64,000 nt of DNA, taken from NCBI GenBank assembly GCA_004299845.1, contig CP036201.1, positions 620,001 through 684,000 on the forward strand, read 5' to 3'. The notes below the pieces were generated by a model. That model was given only the letters and a program-made list of their open reading frames with translations, was not told the DNA's origin and searched no databases. This document shows positions 3,230 through 29,608 of this stretch, one piece after another. Position 1 is the stretch's first letter. Each line of letters opens with the position of its first letter. Source of the stretch: Verrucomicrobia bacterium S94. GTDB taxonomy: Bacteria > Verrucomicrobiota > Kiritimatiellia > Kiritimatiellales > Pontiellaceae. The position numbers were made by a program, and so were the translations under genes.

Positions 3230-3595
3230 ATGGAATCAAAAATCGAAAGTGTTTTGCGATGGTATAAAGGGCTGTCCCTACTTGGTTTCGCAATTGGTAT
3301 TGCTGGATTGGCACGTCTTGTCCTTGAAATTGATCAAGTTCCCGAATGGTCAAGAGTGCCAGTAGCTGCTTGTGTGAGCTTCACTTCGTTAACGGCTATA
3401 TTGGGAGCAGTGCTTCTGTTTCGCTTAAGCAATAAAATTAAAAATAAGCATCCTTATCACCTCTGTGTAAAAAGGTCTTATTTTCTTCTTTTGTTCATAC
3501 CATTGGGCCTGCTTTTTGGGATTTTCTCCATTTGGCAATTGCGACGTCCTAAAGTGAAAACCTTTTTGTGTAGGGGGTCAGATCTGCACATATAA
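3230..3595 (+). CDS. Small membrane protein, candidate Rhs immunity protein
   Basis: 121 residues preceded by a strong GGGGGAG ribosome binding site. Three hydrophobic segments are visible (about residues 14-32, 46-66 and 85-104), so it should sit in the inner membrane. It starts 27 bp after the rhs stop codon, the standard place for the cognate immunity gene, but no family is recognised and the role is positional inference. The C-terminus is odd: the last residues (CRGSDLHI) are encoded by the GGGGTCAG-type repeat that flanks the neighbouring RAYT transposase. The original 3' end was probably replaced when that element arrived, so the protein may be altered or truncated. Confidence 0.65.
   Translation: MESKIESVLRWYKGLSLLGFAIGIAGLARLVLEIDQVPEWSRVPVAACVSFTSLTAILGAVLLFRLSNKIKNKHPYHLCVKRSYFLLLFIPLGLLFGIFSIWQLRRPKVKTFLCRGSDLHI
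3574..3589 (+). repeat. Left REP-like repeat of RAYT 1
   Basis: GGGGTCAGATCTGCAC is the inverted partner of the copy at 4669-4684 (one mismatch). The two copies bracket the transposase gene at 3640-4680. This copy also forms the last codons of the small membrane-protein gene. Confidence 0.75.
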
Positions 3596-3639: not shown

Positions 3640-4680
3640 ATGGCGAGACCTTTGAGAGTTGATATAGAGGGGGGCACGTATCATGTGATGAGCCGTGGAA
3701 TTGATCGGTGCGTGATTTTTAAGTGCGATAAGGACCGGTACCATTTTTTGGATATTCTGGCTTCGGCTCAGGAACGCTTTCGGTTGCAGATATATGCTTA
3801 TGTTTTGATGGATAATCATTTCCACCTGATCGTTTGTACGCCGGATGCCAATTTGAGTCGTGCTTTGCAGTGGATAAAAGTTTCATACAGCATGTGGTTT
3901 AATGCGAAGTACCATCGAGTCGGTCCTTTGTTTCAGGGGCGTTTTAGAAGTGAGCTTGTGGACTCCACTGAAAGCTGGTTGGTGGAGTTGAGTTTGTATG
4001 TCCATTTAAATCCAGTGCGCATAAAGGCGTTGAGTTTGGATAAATTGAGAAAGCAAGCTGAGGGGGCGGGCTGGGTTAAGCCGTCTGAGGAAGAGGCGCA
4101 GCGGCGGTTGGATGCCTTGAGGGGATTTCGATGGAGTTCGTATGCGTATTACGTGGGTATTCGACGAAAGGTTCCGGAATGGTTGAATATCTCTGAGATT
4201 CTTGACCGCGTTTCCAGTCGGGGTGCTCGTGCAGAATATCTTCGTTTAGCGGAGGCGCGTGTCGCGCACGGACATGAAGAGCGGTTTGAGAATCAACTCA
4301 AGAACCGCTTGGCTATTGGAAGTGAAGCGTTTCTGGAGCAGATCAAATCAATATGTACAGCAACAGACCGGGATATTGCCGGCAACAGAGAGTTACGCCA
4401 ACGGGTTTCCTGGGAACGGGTGATTTCGGAGGTGGAGCAGATCTGCGGAAAGAGCTGGGAGGAGCAGCAGGCTCGAGGTGAGTGGGGGCGTTTTTTGGTT
4501 TATTGGGGGGCGCAGAGATTTGCTGGGATGACCTTGAAAGAGATTGCCGGTAAATGTGGATACCGCGATTATAGTGCAGTGAACATGGGGCTTCGGAGAT
4601 TTATCATGCGCTCAAAAGCGGATTCTCAGATACAGTATGCGATGAAGAGGCTTGAAAAAGTGTGCAAAGTGCAGACCTGA
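3640..4680 (+). CDS. REP-associated tyrosine transposase (RAYT 1, Y1_Tnp family)
   Basis: 346 residues. The N-terminal ~150 residues are a Y1/HUH single-strand transposase domain: it opens with the typical YHVMSRG stretch, carries the His-X-His metal motif at residues 60-62 (DNHFH) and has a candidate catalytic Tyr83 in SYSMWFN, followed by GPLFQGRFRS and the YVHLNPVR motif. The C-terminal ~90 residues contain a DnaA-like helix-turn-helix (LKEIAGKCGYRDYSAV), common in these proteins. RAYTs act on REP-type hairpins. Here an inverted pair of GGGGTCAG-RTCTGCAC repeats flanks the gene, and its stop codon lies inside the right-hand repeat, so the gene and repeats form one mobile unit. It is intact and may still be active. 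Confidence 0.9.
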   Translation: MARPLRVDIEGGTYHVMSRGIDRCVIFKCDKDRYHFLDILASAQERFRLQIYAYVLMDNHFHLIVCTPDANLSRALQWIKVSYSMWFNAKYHRVGPLFQGRFRSELVDSTESWLVELSLYVHLNPVRIKALSLDKLRKQAEGAGWVKPSEEEAQRRLDALRGFRWSSYAYYVGIRRKVPEWLNISEILDRVSSRGARAEYLRLAEARVAHGHEERFENQLKNRLAIGSEAFLEQIKSICTATDRDIAGNRELRQRVSWERVISEVEQICGKSWEEQQARGEWGRFLVYWGAQRFAGMTLKEIAGKCGYRDYSAVNMGLRRFIMRSKADSQIQYAMKRLEKVCKVQT

Positions 4681-4684
4681 CCCC
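4669..4684 (-). repeat. Right REP-like repeat of RAYT 1
   Basis: GTGCAGACCTGACCCC is the inverted counterpart of the left repeat at 3574-3589, with one transition. It supplies the TGA stop codon of RAYT 1. A 9-bp tandem CCCTTGATT duplication follows directly. Confidence 0.75.
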
Positions 4685-21632: not shown

Positions 21633-24600
21633 TTATGCCGCACCGGCTTTGGAGTTATTGCCGTTATTGGACATGCTGACTTCAGAGCCGACCTGTTTGA
21701 AGGGGAAGGTCAATGTGATGGCACAGATACCGGCATCGCGCTGTTCGATTCCGGATGTTCCGCCGAGCATGGAGAGATATTTGCGGGCAAGCGTTAATCC
21801 ATATTTTATATCGATCACTCCCTCGGATTCGTTTCCGAAAATTCCGGCCAGCAGTTTATCGTCCACCTGCTCCGGCGTATAAGCCAGTTCAAAGGCGATA
21901 CTGACAGATTCCGCATCGGATGCCGTTTGTGTTATATGCAGACCCAGCCGGCCTTTACGGGTTTTTCGCAACGCGTAGCCGAGCAGAATCACAAGAATTT
22001 TTTGCACCTTGTCTTCGTCTGCTATAACCAGTTTCGGTACGTTGTTTGAGTCCTGATATTGAGCAAAGCTCAATGCGAAAAACAGGTTTTTCGCTTCTGC
22101 ATGTGCGGTGTACTGACGTTCGATTTCATTCAGCATGGTATGCAGATCAAACTGCGTCTGACGGACCTGAATGTCACCATGACTCAACTGGTTCAGCTCG
22201 GCGCGGTAGTTTAATGAATCCATCAGTCCGTAACAGCTACGGCCGGCGTCGGCAATCTGAAGTCGCTGTTCCGCAGAAAGATTATTTGATTTTTCCAGCT
22301 GGCCGGCGGTTTCCACTACGGGTTTCAGAGCGTCATTAACCATATCGCTGAGTTCGTTGATGAGTCTGCTGTTGGTCTGGGTGACAGCCTTTACCTCTCC
22401 CAACGATCTGTTGAGTTCTGCCTGATAGGCCTGTTCTGTTTCTGCCAGTTTCTGTTCCGCTTCTTTCAGCCGTTCGGAAATGGCATTCTGTTCCTTTTTC
22501 AATTTATCGAGAGCTGCGTCGCGGTTTTTAACGGTGGCTTCCGATAGTTTGAGTTCCGTAATCAGGTCCGCTTCTTTCTTCTTAGCTTCCTCGATTTCCC
22601 GCTTGAGGGCTTTGGTTTTTTTTCTGAGAAGCTCGTCGCTGTCCTGCAGTGTGGCACGGAATGTAACTTCAAGCTCGCGCAGTTTTTTTTCGGTTTCATA
22701 GCGATGGTCGGTTTCATCGCGAAGGGTGGCATTGAGTTTTTCAAACTCAATTTCGTTGGCTTTGATCCGACCCTGCAGCTCTGTTTCACGTTTGCGGAGC
22801 ATCTGCTCTGATCGCTGAAGCCGTTTTATTTCTGCTTTAAGATCTCCGGTCTGCTGGGCAACAAGACCTTTCTGGCCATCATATATTTCCTGCATCTTGC
22901 TTTGTGCAGCCTTATAGGCGTCGACCACTTTACGGTATTCTCTTGCAGCTTTTTTCAGTTCACTGTTACGGGTTTCCAGGTTTTTCGCGAGTTCATTTTT
23001 CTCGGCCATCAGACCTTCGATTTTGACCTTCATGTCCTGAGCGGCTTTTTCCATGCTTTCCAGTTTTTTCCGGAGATCGGACGTTTCCGAGGCAATCATT
23101 CTGGAGCGGCTTCCGGAGAGCTGCTGTACTTCGGCCTGTGCTTCTTTAAGTTCTGCTTCGAGCTTCTGTTGTTTCCGTCGGGCTTTCTCCATAAAGTTTT
23201 CACGAACGCGCACCTGCTCTTCGAGACGGGCTTTTTCCGCTTCAAGTTCATTTGCTTTTCTGCGGATTTTGACTTCACCCAAGCGGATGTCGGCGATGGT
23301 CAGGTTCATTTTTTCGCGTTCCTGATTAATCAGCTCCTGCTGTTTCTGCGTGAGCTGTTCCATCTTCTGTTCGATTTCGTTTTTCTTATTTTCGGCCCCT
23401 TCGCGGGCCTGAAGCTGTTCTGCGTAATCTCTGCTTTTCTGGTTCAGCGTCCGTTCCAGCTCTTTGATCCGCTTTTCCTGATCCTTTTCATGTTTCCGCA
23501 TGGCTTTTTCGCGCATTTGAGTCTGAACCAGTTCCTGTTTAATCGCATGGGTCTCTTCTTCCAGCCGCTGATTGAAATCTTTGCGCAGGGCTTCAAGTTC
23601 ATTCATGCTGTTCAGCAGTTTGTCGGCTGCCGCTTTACGTTCAGCAACCTCTTTCTCAAGTTCCAGAGCATGCTGTTCCGTTATGCGTTTGACCTGCTCC
23701 TGCGTGCTCTCAAGAAACTCTTTGGTGCGGGCCAGCTGGTTTTCAGCTTTTTTACGCCCGCTATGCTCCGCTTCGAGGCGGGTCTGGTGTTCTTCATTCA
23801 GTTTGTCGAGTTCGCGCTCGTGCTGTTCTTCAATTTCCGCAAGTCTACCACGCAGTTTATTCAGTTTCTTCTGCAGGTTGTTTAACTGAGTTTCACTGTC
23901 TTCACGGCGGGCGGTTTCCTGGGCATAGTGCTCTTTGATTTCAGCCAGATTCTCTTCGAGTTTACGCAGTTCATCTTCCTTAATCTGCAGTAGTTCTTCC
24001 CATTTCTTGCGTTTATCCGTTTCCGAGTTGAGTTCATTCAGGCGTTTTGAGAGCTGTTCTTCAAGCTGCTGCTGCCGCGAAAGCAGTCCCTGTTCACTGC
24101 GGCGGAGATTTTCCTCCACCTTTCTGGCCTCGGCCAGAGCCTGTTCAAATTCCTGCTCTCTGGCAGCCCGATCGTCTTCGAATGTATCCAGTTTGCGCTG
24201 TACCTCGACCAGTTGTGTTACATAGCGGGCATTCTCTTTTTTGGAATCGGCCAGTTCGTTCTGTGTATTAACGAGTTTGGTTTCCATATCCATCCGTTCG
24301 TTCAGTGCGCGTTCTTCACGCTTTTTCTGACTGGTGATATTGAACGAAAGGCCGATCACTCCTTCAACCAGGCCGTCTTTGGAGACCAACGGGATCTGGT
24401 TGTTTTCCATCCAGCCCTGCTGACCCTGTGTATTGTATTTGCGTTCGCAACGTTGCAGGGTTCCGGTTTTCATGGCCTTGATGGCCAGTACGTCGTAGTC
24501 TTTAGGAGTTCCCGGCATAACCTCGTAAATGGTCTTTCCGATCCATTCCTCCTGGGCGATACCCGTGCGTTCGGCCAGTTTTTTACTGGCATAGAGATAC

Positions 24601-25810
24601 TGGCAGCGGGTGTCTTTGACCTGCACATCGGCCGGCAGCGAATCCAGAATACGCTGCAGAAACAGAATTCGGCTGTTGCGTTCGGCCAATTCACGTTTAT
24701 GGGAGCTTATATTACGCTGAACCCCCAGATGCCCACGAGGTTTCCATCCTCAATTATGCCTCTGACTTCATGCACGAGATTGACGCGCGTACCATTGGCA
24801 TCGAGGCGGATCGATTCAATGTTTACGGCCTTAAAATCATTCCGTATAAATTCCTCCAGAGTTTTCAGGTTCCGGAATAATCCGCAGCCATCCTCCATTT
24901 CACCGATGGTTTTTCCGACCAGTTCATCGGGTTCGACACCGTAGAGTTTAGCAAAGGCTTCGTTGCAGTCCCCGAGAACCAGGGTTTTCATGATTTTTTC
25001 AGCGATACTATCCGGATTGGTATTCAGCGAAACAGGGGACTTCGGTACAAGGCGGTAAAATCCTTCGGAAGAGGATAACAGGTAGTTTTTAACCCGTCGG
25101 GTTTCTGCCTCATGATCCGCAAGGGTTTTATGGAACGGTGTAATATCACTGACCCAGAAGATATAACTTTCAACATCCTGACGCGTATTACGTACGCGCC
25201 GACCGCGGCAGATAACATGCGATATGCGGTCGCGTGAACGCTGGAACCGGAACCGGTGCTCAAATTCGCTCCCGTCCTTTTCCGTAAAGCGCCTGCAGGC
25301 TTCAAGAAACCCGGTGCGGTCGTCCGGATGAACGGCACAGTGAATGCCTTCTTTCATGGCTTTCTTGGGATACAGGCCTGACATTTCCTGCAGCGCCTGA
25401 TTGATGTAAATGCATTTTCCGGCGCGATCGAGCTGAAACATGCCCACGCCGGCCTCAAAAAGTATGCCGTCATAGCGGGTGTTCGTGGCCTGATGGCTGT
25501 TGATTTCCGCTTCGAGCTTTTCGTTGGAAGCTGAAAGCCGGGTGCGGGCCACCTTCAGCTCCTCAGCCAGATTATCGAGTTCTTGTTTGGTATTTTTGTA
25601 TCGCCGCTGAAACAGCAGGAATATCGAAACTGCAACCACCAGAAGAATACCGATAAAAAGATAGGATGTAATATTCAACTGGAGAGGAACGATCAGTGCA
25701 TCCACCCGCTGGGCCTGGCCTGTGCGGGGTAGAAGCAGAATGCTGAACATCAGAGCCGCTCCTGTATATTTTAATGCTGCTGGTCGTTTTTTTACTGAAA
25801 AAAAATTCAT
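21633..25810 (-). CDS. Membrane-anchored multi-PAS, long coiled-coil, degenerate histidine-kinase sensor (frame broken at 24722-24726)
   Basis: The sequence gives two adjacent frames (24707-25810 and 21633-24689), but one extra base in the C5 run at 24722-24726 joins them, restoring the PAS end GVQRNISSHKRELAERN and a 1392-residue protein. Order: hydrophobic segments at about 14-33 and 48-67; PAS 1 (about 113-230), PAS 2 (about 250-372) and PAS 3 (about 385-500); a very long charged coiled coil (about 500-1180); and a C-terminal kinase-like region with GLTLARKYLSMLGG as the G2-like box. The dimerisation helix (ELSDMVNDALKPVVET) lacks a phospho-accepting His, and the N-box reads LLGYALRKTRKG without the usual Asn. 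This is probably a signalling scaffold or pseudokinase. A sigma-54-like site lies just upstream. Confidence 0.82.
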
Positions 25811-25853
25811 GGGTCCGCCTTTTCAAATCTACTATAAAACCAAAAAGTAAATA

Positions 25854-25868
25854 GCAGATCATATGCCA
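25854..25868 (-). promoter_or_regulatory. Possible sigma-54-type promoter of the PAS sensor
   Basis: TGGCATATGATCTGC on the minus strand keeps the GG and GC pairs 12 bp apart as in TGGCACG-N4-TTGC, with three mismatches elsewhere. It is ~44 bp upstream of the start codon. Confidence 0.35.
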
Positions 25869-25918: not shown

Positions 25919-25946
25919 AAAAAACGGCATGCCGTGAGGCATGCCG
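25919..25946 (-). terminator. Terminator of the anchored beta-helix gene
   Basis: A 9-bp stem (CGGCATGCC with GGCATGCCG), a 4-base loop and six T on the minus strand, lying about 58 bp after the stop codon of the gene at 26004. Confidence 0.8.
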
Positions 25947-26003
25947 CTAACACTAAAGGAGAAGAAATGTTTTCAGGGCCCGGAATTTTCCGGAAATATG
26001 AAC

Positions 26004-27269
26004 TTATTTGCGTTTCTTTTTGTTGTTTTTCTTCGTGGAACCGGGGTTCTGCTCCGGGGCATCCTGTTTCGGGATTTCCCCGGTTTCGGGAACGGTCGGG
26101 TTTCGGCGCAGCATCAGCATGGCTGCTCCGACGAAGGCGATATAGCCGGCAACGGCACCGGTTGAAGGTGTGCTGCCGTTTTCCGGCGTTTCAGTAGAAA
26201 CGCCTTTCTGCTGCATAATCAATGCAAGAGAGGAGTTGCCTCCTGCAGCTGGAACAGAAGCGGGAGCAGCTGCTGGTGTCGGAGCGGATGCGCCGGTGCC
26301 TGGGCTGCGCATGTTTTTCAGTAAGGATTCCAGTTTGCGGGGCTGGGCACCGGTCGATGAAACGGTGGATGCGGCGGAAATGCGGTCGATGGCCGCAAGC
26401 AGCTGTTCCTTGGTTTTCACTGCGGAATCGTTGCGTTCGTCTTCGGCACGCACAATGACCAGTTTTTCCTGGATAATCGGTGTGGTGAGACGGCAGCCGG
26501 GTGCTGCAACAAGCCGGTTGTTTTTAATCATGGCTTTAATGGCCTCTTTCTTGTGGGCCACGGGCATGGTGTATTCAAAACGGAGTGTTCCGGCGGCACC
26601 GAGAATAATTCTGCGGCTGGGGTCGGCATTAAAAGTCTTGAACGGATCCTGTTTGGTTTCAATACGAACCGTGCCGCTGAGAATATGGATTTCGGCGGAT
26701 CCTCCGGATTTGGCCTCTGTTCCGATTTCAAGTCCGGTGATCCGGTAGGAGGAATTGTCCTGAAGAAAAACCTGGCCGGTACCGGTTCCTGCTTTGCCGA
26801 TACAGAGTTCGCCGGAGATATTGGAGCGCCCTTTTAGGGTGACCGATCCTTTGGAAGCCGATGTGCCGAAGCCCTTGGCTGAAAGTGCCAGGCGACCGTT
26901 GATTGAGACATTGTCATGCAGCGTCAGGCCGGCAAATCCATCACCGGAGGCAGGAATGTTTATGGTGCGCTGATGCGGGACCTGACTCCACAGGTTGATG
27001 TTTCCGTTGCCCTGCAGGATGAGCTCCTGACCGTATAGGTGCATGCCGTGGTTGAGCTGCACTGTGCTGTCGATGTTGATTACGCTGATCGGTTCGCGAA
27101 AATGGGCCGCTTCATCCTCGCTCGGGACATGGTTCAGTTTCCATTTATATTTATCGGTCCAGTTTTCGACGTTTTCTCCGCCGCGCCATTGGTTGATCTG
27201 CTGTGCTACGACCGGGGTTCCTCCCAGAACCACGGCTGCTGCCATTCCCATTAGTCTCAGTTTTTTCAT
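26004..27269 (-). CDS. Exported beta-helix surface protein with C-terminal membrane anchor
   Basis: 421 residues. There is a signal peptide (MKKLRLMGMAAAVVLGGTPVVA) followed by WRGGENVENWTDKYKW, the kind of opening seen in autotransporter/PEP-CTERM-type passenger proteins, then a glycine- and asparagine-rich beta-helix to about residue 250. A Pro/Ala/Ser-rich stretch follows. Near residues 375-393 there is a single hydrophobic helix (AGYIAFVGAAMLML) followed by RR, and then an unusually long charged tail ending KKNNKKKRK. The helix-plus-basic pattern resembles sorting tails, but the ~27-residue extension fits a stop-transfer anchor better. It is transcribed divergently from the 27449 operon, and both have sigma-54-type promoters. 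Confidence 0.7.
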   Translation of the reverse strand: MKKLRLMGMAAAVVLGGTPVVAQQINQWRGGENVENWTDKYKWKLNHVPSEDEAAHFREPISVINIDSTVQLNHGMHLYGQELILQGNGNINLWSQVPHQRTINIPASGDGFAGLTLHDNVSINGRLALSAKGFGTSASKGSVTLKGRSNISGELCIGKAGTGTGQVFLQDNSSYRITGLEIGTEAKSGGSAEIHILSGTVRIETKQDPFKTFNADPSRRIILGAAGTLRFEYTMPVAHKKEAIKAMIKNNRLVAAPGCRLTTPIIQEKLVIVRAEDERNDSAVKTKEQLLAAIDRISAASTVSSTGAQPRKLESLLKNMRSPGTGASAPTPAAAPASVPAAGGNSSLALIMQQKGVSTETPENGSTPSTGAVAGYIAFVGAAMLMLRRNPTVPETGEIPKQDAPEQNPGSTKKNNKKKRK

Positions 27270-27313
27270 TATTTACCTCACTTCTTCCCTAACAGTGGTT
27301 GCTACGGAGTAAA

Positions 27314-27328
27314 GCAGGTTGCGTGCCT
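27314..27328 (-). promoter_or_regulatory. Sigma-54-type promoter of the anchored beta-helix gene
   Basis: AGGCACGCAACCTGC on the minus strand: GGCACG, four bases, CTGC, with GG and GC spaced 12 bp apart. Two mismatches to TGGCACG-N4-TTGC. The predicted start site is ~34 nt before the ATG. Confidence 0.6.
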
Positions 27329-27388
27329 ATAATTTAATGCTTCGGAAATTATTGTTATTTGCGCTGAAATCGGCGTGCGACAAATATG

Positions 27389-27404
27389 TGGCACGCAGTT
27401 TGCT
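27389..27404 (+). promoter_or_regulatory. Sigma-54-type promoter of the 27449-29534 operon
   Basis: TGGCACGCAGTTTGCT is an exact match to TGGCACG-N4-TTGCT, the -24/-12 consensus. The predicted start site is near 27415, ~34 nt before the first ATG. No upstream activator site could be identified by eye. Confidence 0.8.
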
Positions 27405-27448
27405 ACTAAGCTTCCGTAATTTCACACGTGAAAATGAAGGTTGGGTAG

Positions 27449-28177
27449 ATGAGCAGCGTAGATAAAATTATGGTCTCCAAAGACAACGGCCGCCTGCAGA
27501 TTCCTTATAAGGATTATGTTGCGCTCATGGAGAGAGTTAAAGAAGGACAGCGAATCCGTGAGGTGAAGAACGCTGTGCTGGCCGACTTGAAGCGGGTACT
27601 GGGGGGCACAGTTACCGCTGTCGAGGTTCAGAAGAAAGTTGCAGCTGCACGGAAGGATATTCCGACAGTTGCACAGGTAAACCGTAAAGCCGCTGAGAAA
27701 GGTTCGGACAAAAGCGGCTCCGGGACTCCGTCTGTCCGTCCGGGAACCAAAGCCGCCGCGGAGCCGGGCGGAATTCCGGAAGGTATGGAAGTGCCGCCCA
27801 TCAAAAAAGATGTCTCTGCACATTTCAATAAACTCGATGAGTCCGGTCGTCTGTTCAGTGTTTTCAAACAGTATTATGCTTTCCTGAACGATGCCTGCGG
27901 CGGAACTGTGCGGGTGACGCTGAAGGATGGAATCTGCAGTTTGTGGAATTATGATGAGTGGGAAGAGTTTGCCTATATTGATATTTTCGAAGGGCAGTTG
28001 AGAGTCTCACTCGATCAGCGATACACCGATGCCGTGAAGTCGCTCAATCTGTGCGAAGCACCCCGCCTGCTTTCCAGTCGGCTGAACCTGGTCTGTGTCC
28101 AGGTCAACGATCTGAATAACACCATGCTCAAAGTTATGGCTAAAGCCTTCGAGGAGGTTGGCCTGACAGCGAGTTAG
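27449..28177 (+). CDS. Protein of unknown function, first gene of the sigma-54 operon
   Basis: 242 residues, not recognised. Residues ~16-51 (LQIPYKDYVALMERVKEG onwards) form a predicted amphipathic helix region that aligns without gaps to residues 19-54 of the 54-aa microprotein at 29370. A Lys/Ala/Pro/Gly-rich linker (about 60-115) leads to a compact C-terminal domain (about 118-242) with DLNNTMLKVMAKAFEEVG near its end. There is no signal peptide or membrane segment, so it should be cytoplasmic. It is the first gene after a consensus sigma-54 promoter and is followed 16 bp later by a membrane protein, so the three genes form one transcript ending at 29608. Confidence 0.7.
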   Translation: MSSVDKIMVSKDNGRLQIPYKDYVALMERVKEGQRIREVKNAVLADLKRVLGGTVTAVEVQKKVAAARKDIPTVAQVNRKAAEKGSDKSGSGTPSVRPGTKAAAEPGGIPEGMEVPPIKKDVSAHFNKLDESGRLFSVFKQYYAFLNDACGGTVRVTLKDGICSLWNYDEWEEFAYIDIFEGQLRVSLDQRYTDAVKSLNLCEAPRLLSSRLNLVCVQVNDLNNTMLKVMAKAFEEVGLTAS

Positions 28178-28193
28178 GAATAGGGAGAAAAAC

Positions 28194-29330
28194 ATGAATA
28201 AGAAAACAAACATCATAATGATTGTGGCTGCGGCCATAGTGCTTGTGGCACTGAACGTGGGAGTGTTCATAGCTGCAGGCAACGGTGCCATTTCGCCGAT
28301 TAACAACATCCTGTTGTGGGGCGGATTTGTGGTGCTGAATGTGGCATCTATACTGTGGGCTATCAGTCTGCTGGGTCTGCAGCCGCTTGTGGTAACGTGT
28401 TCCTATGTGGCCGGTGGCGCATTGGCCTATTTCGGCGTCCGGAATATGACGGAGATCAGTGTAGCCGAAGTTACCACTGCAGGGGCCACCTACGGTGCAT
28501 TCGGTGCGCTGGCTATCGGCAATGCTACAACGAAGGTGCGTCTGGCCTTTTTCAATAAAGGACAGGTTCCGTTTATTTTTGTAATCATCAGCCTGCTGGT
28601 GATCGATGCCGGGCTGAACAGTCAGATTTCAAGTGCAGGTGTTCCGGTATTACTGAATGCGGTCGCGCTCCCGTTCATTGCGGCCGGAGTGGTCGTCGGA
28701 TCAATCTGGAGCATCATGAATAAATTCGGTGTAGGTAAAAAAGCGACCGACGTACTCGCTGAGCGTGATGCAGCTGCCGCATTGGGGGCAACCGCCACAA
28801 GCGAACAGCAGATTGTCATTCCGACATCTGAAACAGCACAGGCTGAACCTGTGGCTAAGCCTCGGCCGGTGAAGCAGAAACCGGCTCCCCGGAAAGAAGC
28901 GGAACCGCTGATTGCCCCGGCTGTTAAAACGGCCTCTAAACCGAAGCCGAAAGCCGCGCCGAAACCGAAACCTGTGCCTGTTGTGGCTGAAGCCGCTCCG
29001 GCTCCGTCGAAACCGGCAGCGAAAGAAGAACCGTTTTTCCCGCTTGAACTCGATAAAGACGAGGAACTCAATCTGACCGAGAAGGTTGAAAAACCGGAAT
29101 TCGATATTCCCGTATTCGATGCCGCGCTCTATGCCTCCGGATCGCAGGAAGACAGCGATGACGGTGGAGTGATGGTTCAGGAGCCGGCAGTCTCCGTAGA
29201 GACCCAGCCCGGAAAATCAGTTGTCGATGAGGTTCCCGAAGTGGACGTCAAATCCGAGCCCAAGACGGAAAAATCCAAAGGGGATGACTTCCTGGGCGGG
29301 CACCTCGACCTGTTGAACAGATTGAAATAA
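28194..29330 (+). CDS. Polytopic membrane protein with long disordered Pro/Ala/Lys tail
   Basis: 378 residues. The first ~180 contain about six hydrophobic segments (near 7-29, 38-60, 64-84, 90-110, 123-142 and 147-172). The second half is a low-complexity tail rich in Lys, Pro, Ala and Glu (KPKPKAAPKPKPVP-type runs) that turns acidic and ends in DDFLGGHLDLLNRLK, a possible short amphipathic docking helix. No family is recognised. The layout suggests a membrane hub with a flexible cytoplasmic arm, perhaps partnering the soluble proteins encoded on either side in the same operon. The ribosome binding site is AGGGAG; the 16-bp gap to the preceding gene supports cotranscription. Confidence 0.7.
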   Translation: MNKKTNIIMIVAAAIVLVALNVGVFIAAGNGAISPINNILLWGGFVVLNVASILWAISLLGLQPLVVTCSYVAGGALAYFGVRNMTEISVAEVTTAGATYGAFGALAIGNATTKVRLAFFNKGQVPFIFVIISLLVIDAGLNSQISSAGVPVLLNAVALPFIAAGVVVGSIWSIMNKFGVGKKATDVLAERDAAAALGATATSEQQIVIPTSETAQAEPVAKPRPVKQKPAPRKEAEPLIAPAVKTASKPKPKAAPKPKPVPVVAEAAPAPSKPAAKEEPFFPLELDKDEELNLTEKVEKPEFDIPVFDAALYASGSQEDSDDGGVMVQEPAVSVETQPGKSVVDEVPEVDVKSEPKTEKSKGDDFLGGHLDLLNRLK

Positions 29331-29369
29331 GCGAAATTAAATATAACGGATAAAAATAAGGAGTAAGCC

Positions 29370-29534
29370 ATGGATAACGATAACGTACAGATCTTCTACG
29401 ATGGAAACGGAAACGCAGTTGCAGTTCAGATGCCGATCTCGGACTACGAGAAAATCATCAAAAGTGCTAAAGACGCAGTTGAAGCCAAGGATGCCATTGC
29501 GAAGGCTGTAGACGCACTTCAGGGCGTTCTCTAA
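29370..29534 (+). CDS. 54-residue microprotein related to the N-terminus of the 27449 product
   Basis: ATG at 29370 with an excellent AAGGAG 6 bp upstream; the reading frame is 54 codons plus stop. Residues 19-54 (QMPISDYEKIIKSAKD onwards) align without gaps to residues 16-51 of the 242-aa protein: a hydrophobic-Pro start, the pattern xDYxxhhxxhK (h hydrophobic), and an Ala/Val-rich helix ending VL. It has no signal peptide or membrane segment. As the last gene of a sigma-54 operon, it may pair with, mimic or compete with the N-terminal helix of its larger relative. Function unknown. Confidence 0.75.
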   Translation: MDNDNVQIFYDGNGNAVAVQMPISDYEKIIKSAKDAVEAKDAIAKAVDALQGVL

Positions 29535-29559
29535 ATCCGGGTTCCATAACCCGCTCGAT

Positions 29560-29608
29560 AAAGTTTTCCAATACCTGCAGGTAGCAGGGGTTGGAAAACT
29601 TTTTTTTT
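29560..29608 (+). terminator. Rho-independent terminator of the sigma-54 operon
   Basis: A 12-bp stem (AAAGTTTTCCAA with TTGGAAAACTTT) around a 19-base loop, followed by a long T run. Confidence 0.85.

Follow-up and report, generated by a model that had tools for sequence, protein, structure and literature searches.

Sigma-54 has been proposed to control the bacterial exterior (PMC3162934), and in Chlamydia its regulon is centred on the envelope (PMC7482065). RpoN-dependent genes for PEP-CTERM surface proteins are also known, such as pepA of Aquincola tertiaricarbonis (PMC9850573). The locus described here, from Verrucomicrobia bacterium S94, shares with the pepA system a sigma-54 promoter that serves the gene of an exported protein ending in a membrane tail. 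However, its tail is of a GYxxF type and not PEP, and its divergent operon and sensor-like gene are without counterpart there. Because RpoN-controlled anchored surface proteins are already known, the kind of arrangement is familiar and the set of proteins is new. The promoter class, the envelope theme and a related superphylum link the locus to the exterior-control proposal (PMC3162934) and to the Chlamydia regulon (PMC7482065), from which it differs in that the Pontiella case is purely comparative and its targets are genus-specific families. We found no description in the literature of the locus, nor of sigma-54 in Pontiella.

The window, meaning the whole 64,000-nucleotide stretch of DNA that was analysed, belongs to a 4.1 Mb single-contig genome. 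The features of the locus are listed below.

21633..24689, minus strand: sensor-like gene, second half, which encodes PAS, a coiled coil, the degenerate HATPase and the GAA tail
24707..25810, minus strand: PAS sensor-like gene, first half, which encodes the signal peptide, a membrane helix and PAS domains
25853..25868, minus strand: third predicted sigma-54 -24/-12 element, TGGCATATGATCTGCT, before the PAS sensor-like gene; found in 13/16 genomes
25923..25948, minus strand: terminator after the surface-protein gene, seen in the window and also in relatives
26004..27269, minus strand: 421-aa surface protein with a signal peptide, regular repeats rich in glycine, a variable linker and a transmembrane tail of the GYxxF type
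27313..27328, minus strand: -24/-12 element AGGCACGCAACCTGCT, promoter of the surface-protein gene; predicted start near 27303; kept in 17/17 genomes
27389..27404, plus strand: -24/-12 element TGGCACGCAGTTTGCT, promoter of the ORF1-3 operon; predicted start near 27414; kept in 17/17 genomes
27449..28177, plus strand: ORF1, 242 aa, with a hairpin-helix akin to ORF3 at the N-terminus, a disordered linker and a C-terminal domain of YjbR/YdhG-like fold
28194..29330, plus strand: ORF2, 378 aa, a membrane protein of roughly six helices whose disordered arm keeps short motifs; tentatively an inactive rhomboid
29370..29534, plus strand: ORF3, RelB-like microprotein of 54 aa, relative of ORF1 residues 1-51
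29560..29608, plus strand: intrinsic terminator after ORF3 (stem 29561-29571 with 29591-29601, then a T run)

We compared the divergent intergenic region across the 17 genomes, the window's own included, in which it was readable, all from one GTDB genus (Pontiella and kin). Both elements fit the sigma-54 consensus TGGCAYRN4TTGCW, with GG at -24 and GC at -12 at fixed spacing, and both were present in the same orientation in all 17 regions. Their seven core letters (GGCA and TGC) were 100% identical throughout the set, compared with 42-44% identity for the in-site spacers and 38% for the remaining intergenic DNA. Single-letter shuffles of the region gave P ~6e-5 for the occurrence of both sites. 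This conservation looks like a strong footprint of selection on the -24/-12 elements, and the divergent sigma-54 promoters are almost certainly real and not chance matches, as judged from the alignment. TGGCACGCAGTTTGCT matches TGGCACGN4TTGCW with zero mismatches and is the sole such match within the window; the predicted starts lie 35 nt (plus side) and 34 nt (minus side) from the ATG. A sequence-only reading of this DNA had placed two divergent elements at exactly these positions, with a perfect consensus match on the plus side and about 34 nt from start site to ATG. All of this held, as did conservation of the pairs in relatives, on which that reading had staked its claim; a third site, preceding the sensor gene, had been overlooked.

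Counting consensus sites across the genome was tried as evidence and dropped. The pattern TGGCACRN4TTGCW has three matches in 4.1 Mb, TGGCACGCAGTTTGCT among them, and the reversed-pattern control has two, so the count alone is uninformative and single sites carry little meaning; conservation across relatives was used in its place. No conserved activator-binding block was seen between the two promoters in the intergenic alignment of the 17 genomes. Both divergent transcripts carry a GTTAGGGA-like word in their leaders (window 27285-27297, minus; 27438-27447, plus), as they do in many relatives, with the same placement in L026-L032; the word may be a translation signal or operator common to the two.

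Between the surface-protein gene and the sensor-like gene lie the terminator and then TGGCATATGATCTGCT, whose predicted start is 33 nt upstream of the PAS gene. The three genomes that lack this site (L033, L034 and L035) have no gap, the PAS gene adjoining the surface-protein gene, so that it would be readable from the latter's sigma-54 promoter; a sensor gene without its own site thus apparently stays under sigma-54. Having either its own site or a place right behind the surface-protein gene, the sensor gene appears to be part of the same switched set. At one locus (L041, genome G026) the surface-protein gene is absent between ORF1 and the sensor, and sigma-54 sites toward both persist.

The sensor-like protein is mostly a single chain of ~1390-1540 residues in relatives. 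The window's copy of the gene falls into two frames because a G run near 24724 (minus strand) has a one-base gap, which reflects either an assembly error or a real frameshift or lesion. The protein carries a signal peptide and one membrane helix (both assigned by eye), three PAS domains and a long coiled coil, and ends in a weak HATPase match and an invariant closing GAA.

The surface protein has a predicted signal peptide and C-terminal membrane tail, in line with the anchored protein proposed earlier for the minus side. Its tail reads GY[IV][AV]F...LR. We considered it as a PEP-CTERM/exosortase substrate and rejected this, the tail having no PEP-type motif. No second protein with a GYxxF-type tail was found in 464 kb of the S94 genome, window included; ordinary PEP-CTERM tails do occur on other proteins in the same 464 kb. 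In four relatives (L027, L030, L031 and L036), a second small exported protein, proline-rich (QPHPPTTRPP...) and absent from the window, is encoded between the surface-protein and sensor genes and also ends in a GYxxF-type tail.

The plus-side reading frames and the terminator, similar hairpins to which were seen in most relatives inspected, are as the sequence-only reading described them, with sizes of 242, 378 and 54 aa. Its statement that none of the three proteins is recognised was correct for ORF1 and ORF2, which have no match in Pfam, NCBIfam or PHROGs, and wrong for ORF3. All 16 ORF3 members match Pfam RelB-like (PF18506), the best at 6e-7; the window's own copy scores 7e-6 and 26.2 bits, slightly below the cut-off of 27. 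Comparison of all three proteins with the sequences of solved structures gave noise only.

ORF3 is also related to ORF1. Profile comparison aligned ORF1 residues 1-51 with the entire ORF3 (probability 92%, E 8e-7), a score reached by 0/200 shuffled controls, so the operon carries this hairpin-helix unit in two forms, one long and one short. We infer that ORF1 and ORF3 pair or compete. Mean column identity is 91% for ORF3, 59% for ORF1 and 51% for ORF2. The C-terminal domain of ORF1 was well predicted in the structure model and has the fold of YdhG/DUF1801 and YjbR, with a best Z of 9.9 over 110 residues (9t2w, Z 9.9; 2oc6, Z 9.2; 2fki, Z 8.3) and a more distant likeness to the T4 MotA C-domain and frataxin. 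None of 16 members matched YjbR or DUF1801 in Pfam, and the likeness is therefore one of fold only. Further short ORF3-like proteins (~44 aa, MEKxKVNVMYDENGNA...) occur elsewhere in three relatives (L206, L207 and L208).

The ORF2 model combines roughly six membrane helices with an arm of ~165 residues predicted at low confidence and a helix at the C-terminus, which bears out the earlier description of a polytopic membrane protein with a long disordered arm. The arm aligns poorly yet keeps the motifs LVI.MP, FFPLEIDKD and GGVMV.EP, and the terminal helix conserves DWLxGHLDLLNKLK. Islands conserved in this way suggest that the disordered arm has docking sites. The structural match list of ORF2 is headed by GlpG rhomboids at Z 10, a value that helical bundles reach by chance. 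A profile alignment of ORF2 with rhomboids from its own order runs collinearly through the entire core, with GATYGAFGALA aligned to GASGAVFGVLGAF, and its score was reached by 0-3/100 and 7/150 shuffles (shuffle P ~0.02-0.05). Neither Pfam, rhomboid families included, nor Foldseek with the ORF2 model gave a significant match. At the aligned catalytic positions, in what is a tentative alignment, Ala replaces the Ser of GxSG in nearly all ORF2 members, L032 alone having Ser, and the His position is taken by a hydrophobic residue. The kinship is marginal, and that ORF2 is a rhomboid, and an inactive one, is possible though somewhat doubtful. It would resemble the rhomboid pseudoproteases (iRhoms and derlins; PMC3149277, PMC8641752) in its six-helix core and in possibly binding membrane segments without cleaving them, but differs from them in this marginal kinship and in its long motif-bearing arm.

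We also examined the neighbourhood and distribution of the locus. The order GH18 - sensor - surface protein - ORF1 - ORF2 - ORF3 - PSD1 - DUF1501 - PPC-like recurs across the genus, with few exceptions, wherever contigs are long enough. Since flanking genes with no obvious link are syntenic too, the neighbourhood alone is weak evidence. ORF1 is present in 18/29 family genomes; among the 14 most complete of the 29, it is found in 13. The number of sampled phylum genera with a match was 1/199 for ORF1, 1/107 for ORF2 and 1/152 for ORF3, always the same genus; none of the three was found outside it in 388, 195 and 289 sampled phylum genomes, respectively. ORF1, ORF2 and ORF3 therefore share a genus-only and essentially single-copy distribution, which agrees with the earlier claim of undescribed families (ORF3, being RelB-like, excepted). 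Named carriers of the locus are assigned to Pontiella, Pontiellaceae and Kiritimatiellales. No relatives of ORF1 were found in viral contigs. Three protein families without known function are retained across a whole genus of marine anaerobes that degrade polysaccharides, and one of them is a 54-residue protein conserved above its neighbours.

The machinery needed to use such promoters is encoded in these genomes. A sigma-54 gene was found in 28/29 family genomes, and the S94 genome has two (G000:C1:1990446 and G000:C1:354799; L001 and L002) together with about nine AAA+ activators (nine strong activator domains), most with receiver-like N-termini as judged by eye. Two sigma-54 copies occur in S94 and a few relatives; most relatives have a single one. 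Candidate sites resembling those of the locus also precede orthologous genes in sets of two to four Pontiella genomes, namely MreB in 4/4 genomes (L154, L161, L194, L195), a FadL-like porin (L149/L159), a MotA/ExbB-like protein (L163/L190), Big-domain exported proteins (L142/L145/L178/L193) and a prepilin-like protein. Others were seen before DnaK in two genomes (L177/L186) and a secretin in one (L196). These sites near envelope and chaperone genes suggest a wider envelope regulon, which fits both the exterior-control proposal (PMC3162934) and the Chlamydia regulon (PMC7482065). Comparative footprinting ties the sigma-54 of Kiritimatiellota to envelope genes, a connection already demonstrated in Chlamydia and put forward for other bacteria. 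The locus offers a solid and testable starting point for defining a sigma-54 regulon in this phylum, where gene regulation has been little studied.

We interpret the locus as a sigma-54-switched envelope module or assembly that is core to the genus, a reading to which we give roughly an even chance. When an enhancer-binding activator fires, the three promoters would come on together and jointly express the exported, membrane-anchored repeat protein, the membrane-bound PAS sensor-like protein and the ORF1-ORF2-ORF3 operon. We infer that the products form a single assembly at, and across, the inner membrane. ORF2 would be its membrane hub, with the long cytoplasmic arm docking soluble partners through its short conserved motifs. 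ORF1 and ORF3 would be the cytoplasmic partners, pairing or competing through the related hairpin-helix. The surface protein would be the outward part, its GYxxF membrane tail held and not cut by the ORF2 core, and the sensor-like protein would report its state by protein contact and not by phosphorylation. This reading draws on the two sites kept in all 17 genomes compared, the third site in 13/16 with the sensor gene joined directly to the surface-protein gene in the other three, the near-universal sigma-54 gene, the activators and the conserved neighbourhood. It draws further on the shared distribution of ORF1-3, the ORF1-ORF3 kinship, the motifs of the ORF2 arm, the degenerate HATPase and the collinear ORF2-GlpG alignment atop the structural list. 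Counted against it are L041 with no surface-protein gene in place, the marginal rhomboid likeness and the lack of a conserved activator-binding site between the two promoters. That the two transcripts form one regulated surface or signalling module, as proposed before, is plausible from shared control and co-conservation, but the kinase domain of the sensor looks inactive. We think it rather unlikely that the locus encodes, more specifically, a sigma-54-switched trans-envelope machine built of enzyme- or antitoxin-like parts stripped of those activities, comprising a rhomboid pseudoprotease hub, a pseudokinase PAS sensor, a RelB-like microprotein with its longer relative and a GYxxF tail that is held.

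The main rival, which we regard as unlikely but deserving of real weight, involves no single assembly: the genes would be independent envelope genes that belong to one broad sigma-54 regulon and lie in a chromosomal stretch that is itself conserved. Same-type sites before MreB in 4/4 genomes and before the FadL-like, MotA/ExbB-like, prepilin-like and Big-domain genes speak for it, as does the synteny of the GH18, PSD1 and DUF1501 neighbours. However, three promoters are crowded into one locus, ORF1 and ORF3 are kin, and ORF1-3 have the same narrow distribution. A phosphorelay, in which the PAS protein would be a functional histidine kinase that passes an envelope signal to an activator, with the other genes as output, seems improbable. 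Three PAS domains, the weak HATPase match, the receiver-like N-termini of most activators and the predicted sigma-54 control of the sensor gene itself would suit such a relay, but no phospho-acceptor domain was found, and the N-box Asn and DxGxG are absent from the HATPase in all relatives aligned, which makes a phosphorelay role unlikely. The kinase domain is degenerate and looks inactive, and we rejected the sensor as a histidine kinase on these three counts.

The remaining rivals treat parts of the locus as members of described systems. Rhombosortase trims GlyGly-CTERM proteins (PMC3237569), and ORF2 could likewise be an active rhomboid-type sortase that trims the GYxxF tail. The pairing of a rhomboid-like protein with an exported, tail-bearing protein is common to both systems, and the rhomboid-like core of ORF2 and the tripartite-looking tail, borne by the co-regulated exported protein and in four relatives by a second one too, fit the idea. 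But the tail motif differs from GlyGly-CTERM, the aligned catalytic residues of ORF2 are lost in nearly all members and its rhomboid kinship is itself marginal, so we hold active sorting to be very unlikely. That ORF3 serves as the antitoxin of a toxin-antitoxin pair or comparable mobile module is scarcely credible. ORF3 matches RelB-like in 16/16 members and shares the hairpin-helix of those antitoxins (PF18506), as does the ORF1 N-terminus; unlike them, it has no toxin beside it, no toxin family being matched among the scanned neighbours, and the fixed genus-wide position, the very strong conservation of ORF3 and its resemblance to the ORF1 N-terminus also speak against such a module.

Elsewhere in the window, inverted copies of GGGGTCAGRTCTGC lie ~1.1 kb apart at 3574-3587 (plus strand) and 4671-4684 (minus strand), perhaps marking a small transposable or REP-type element.
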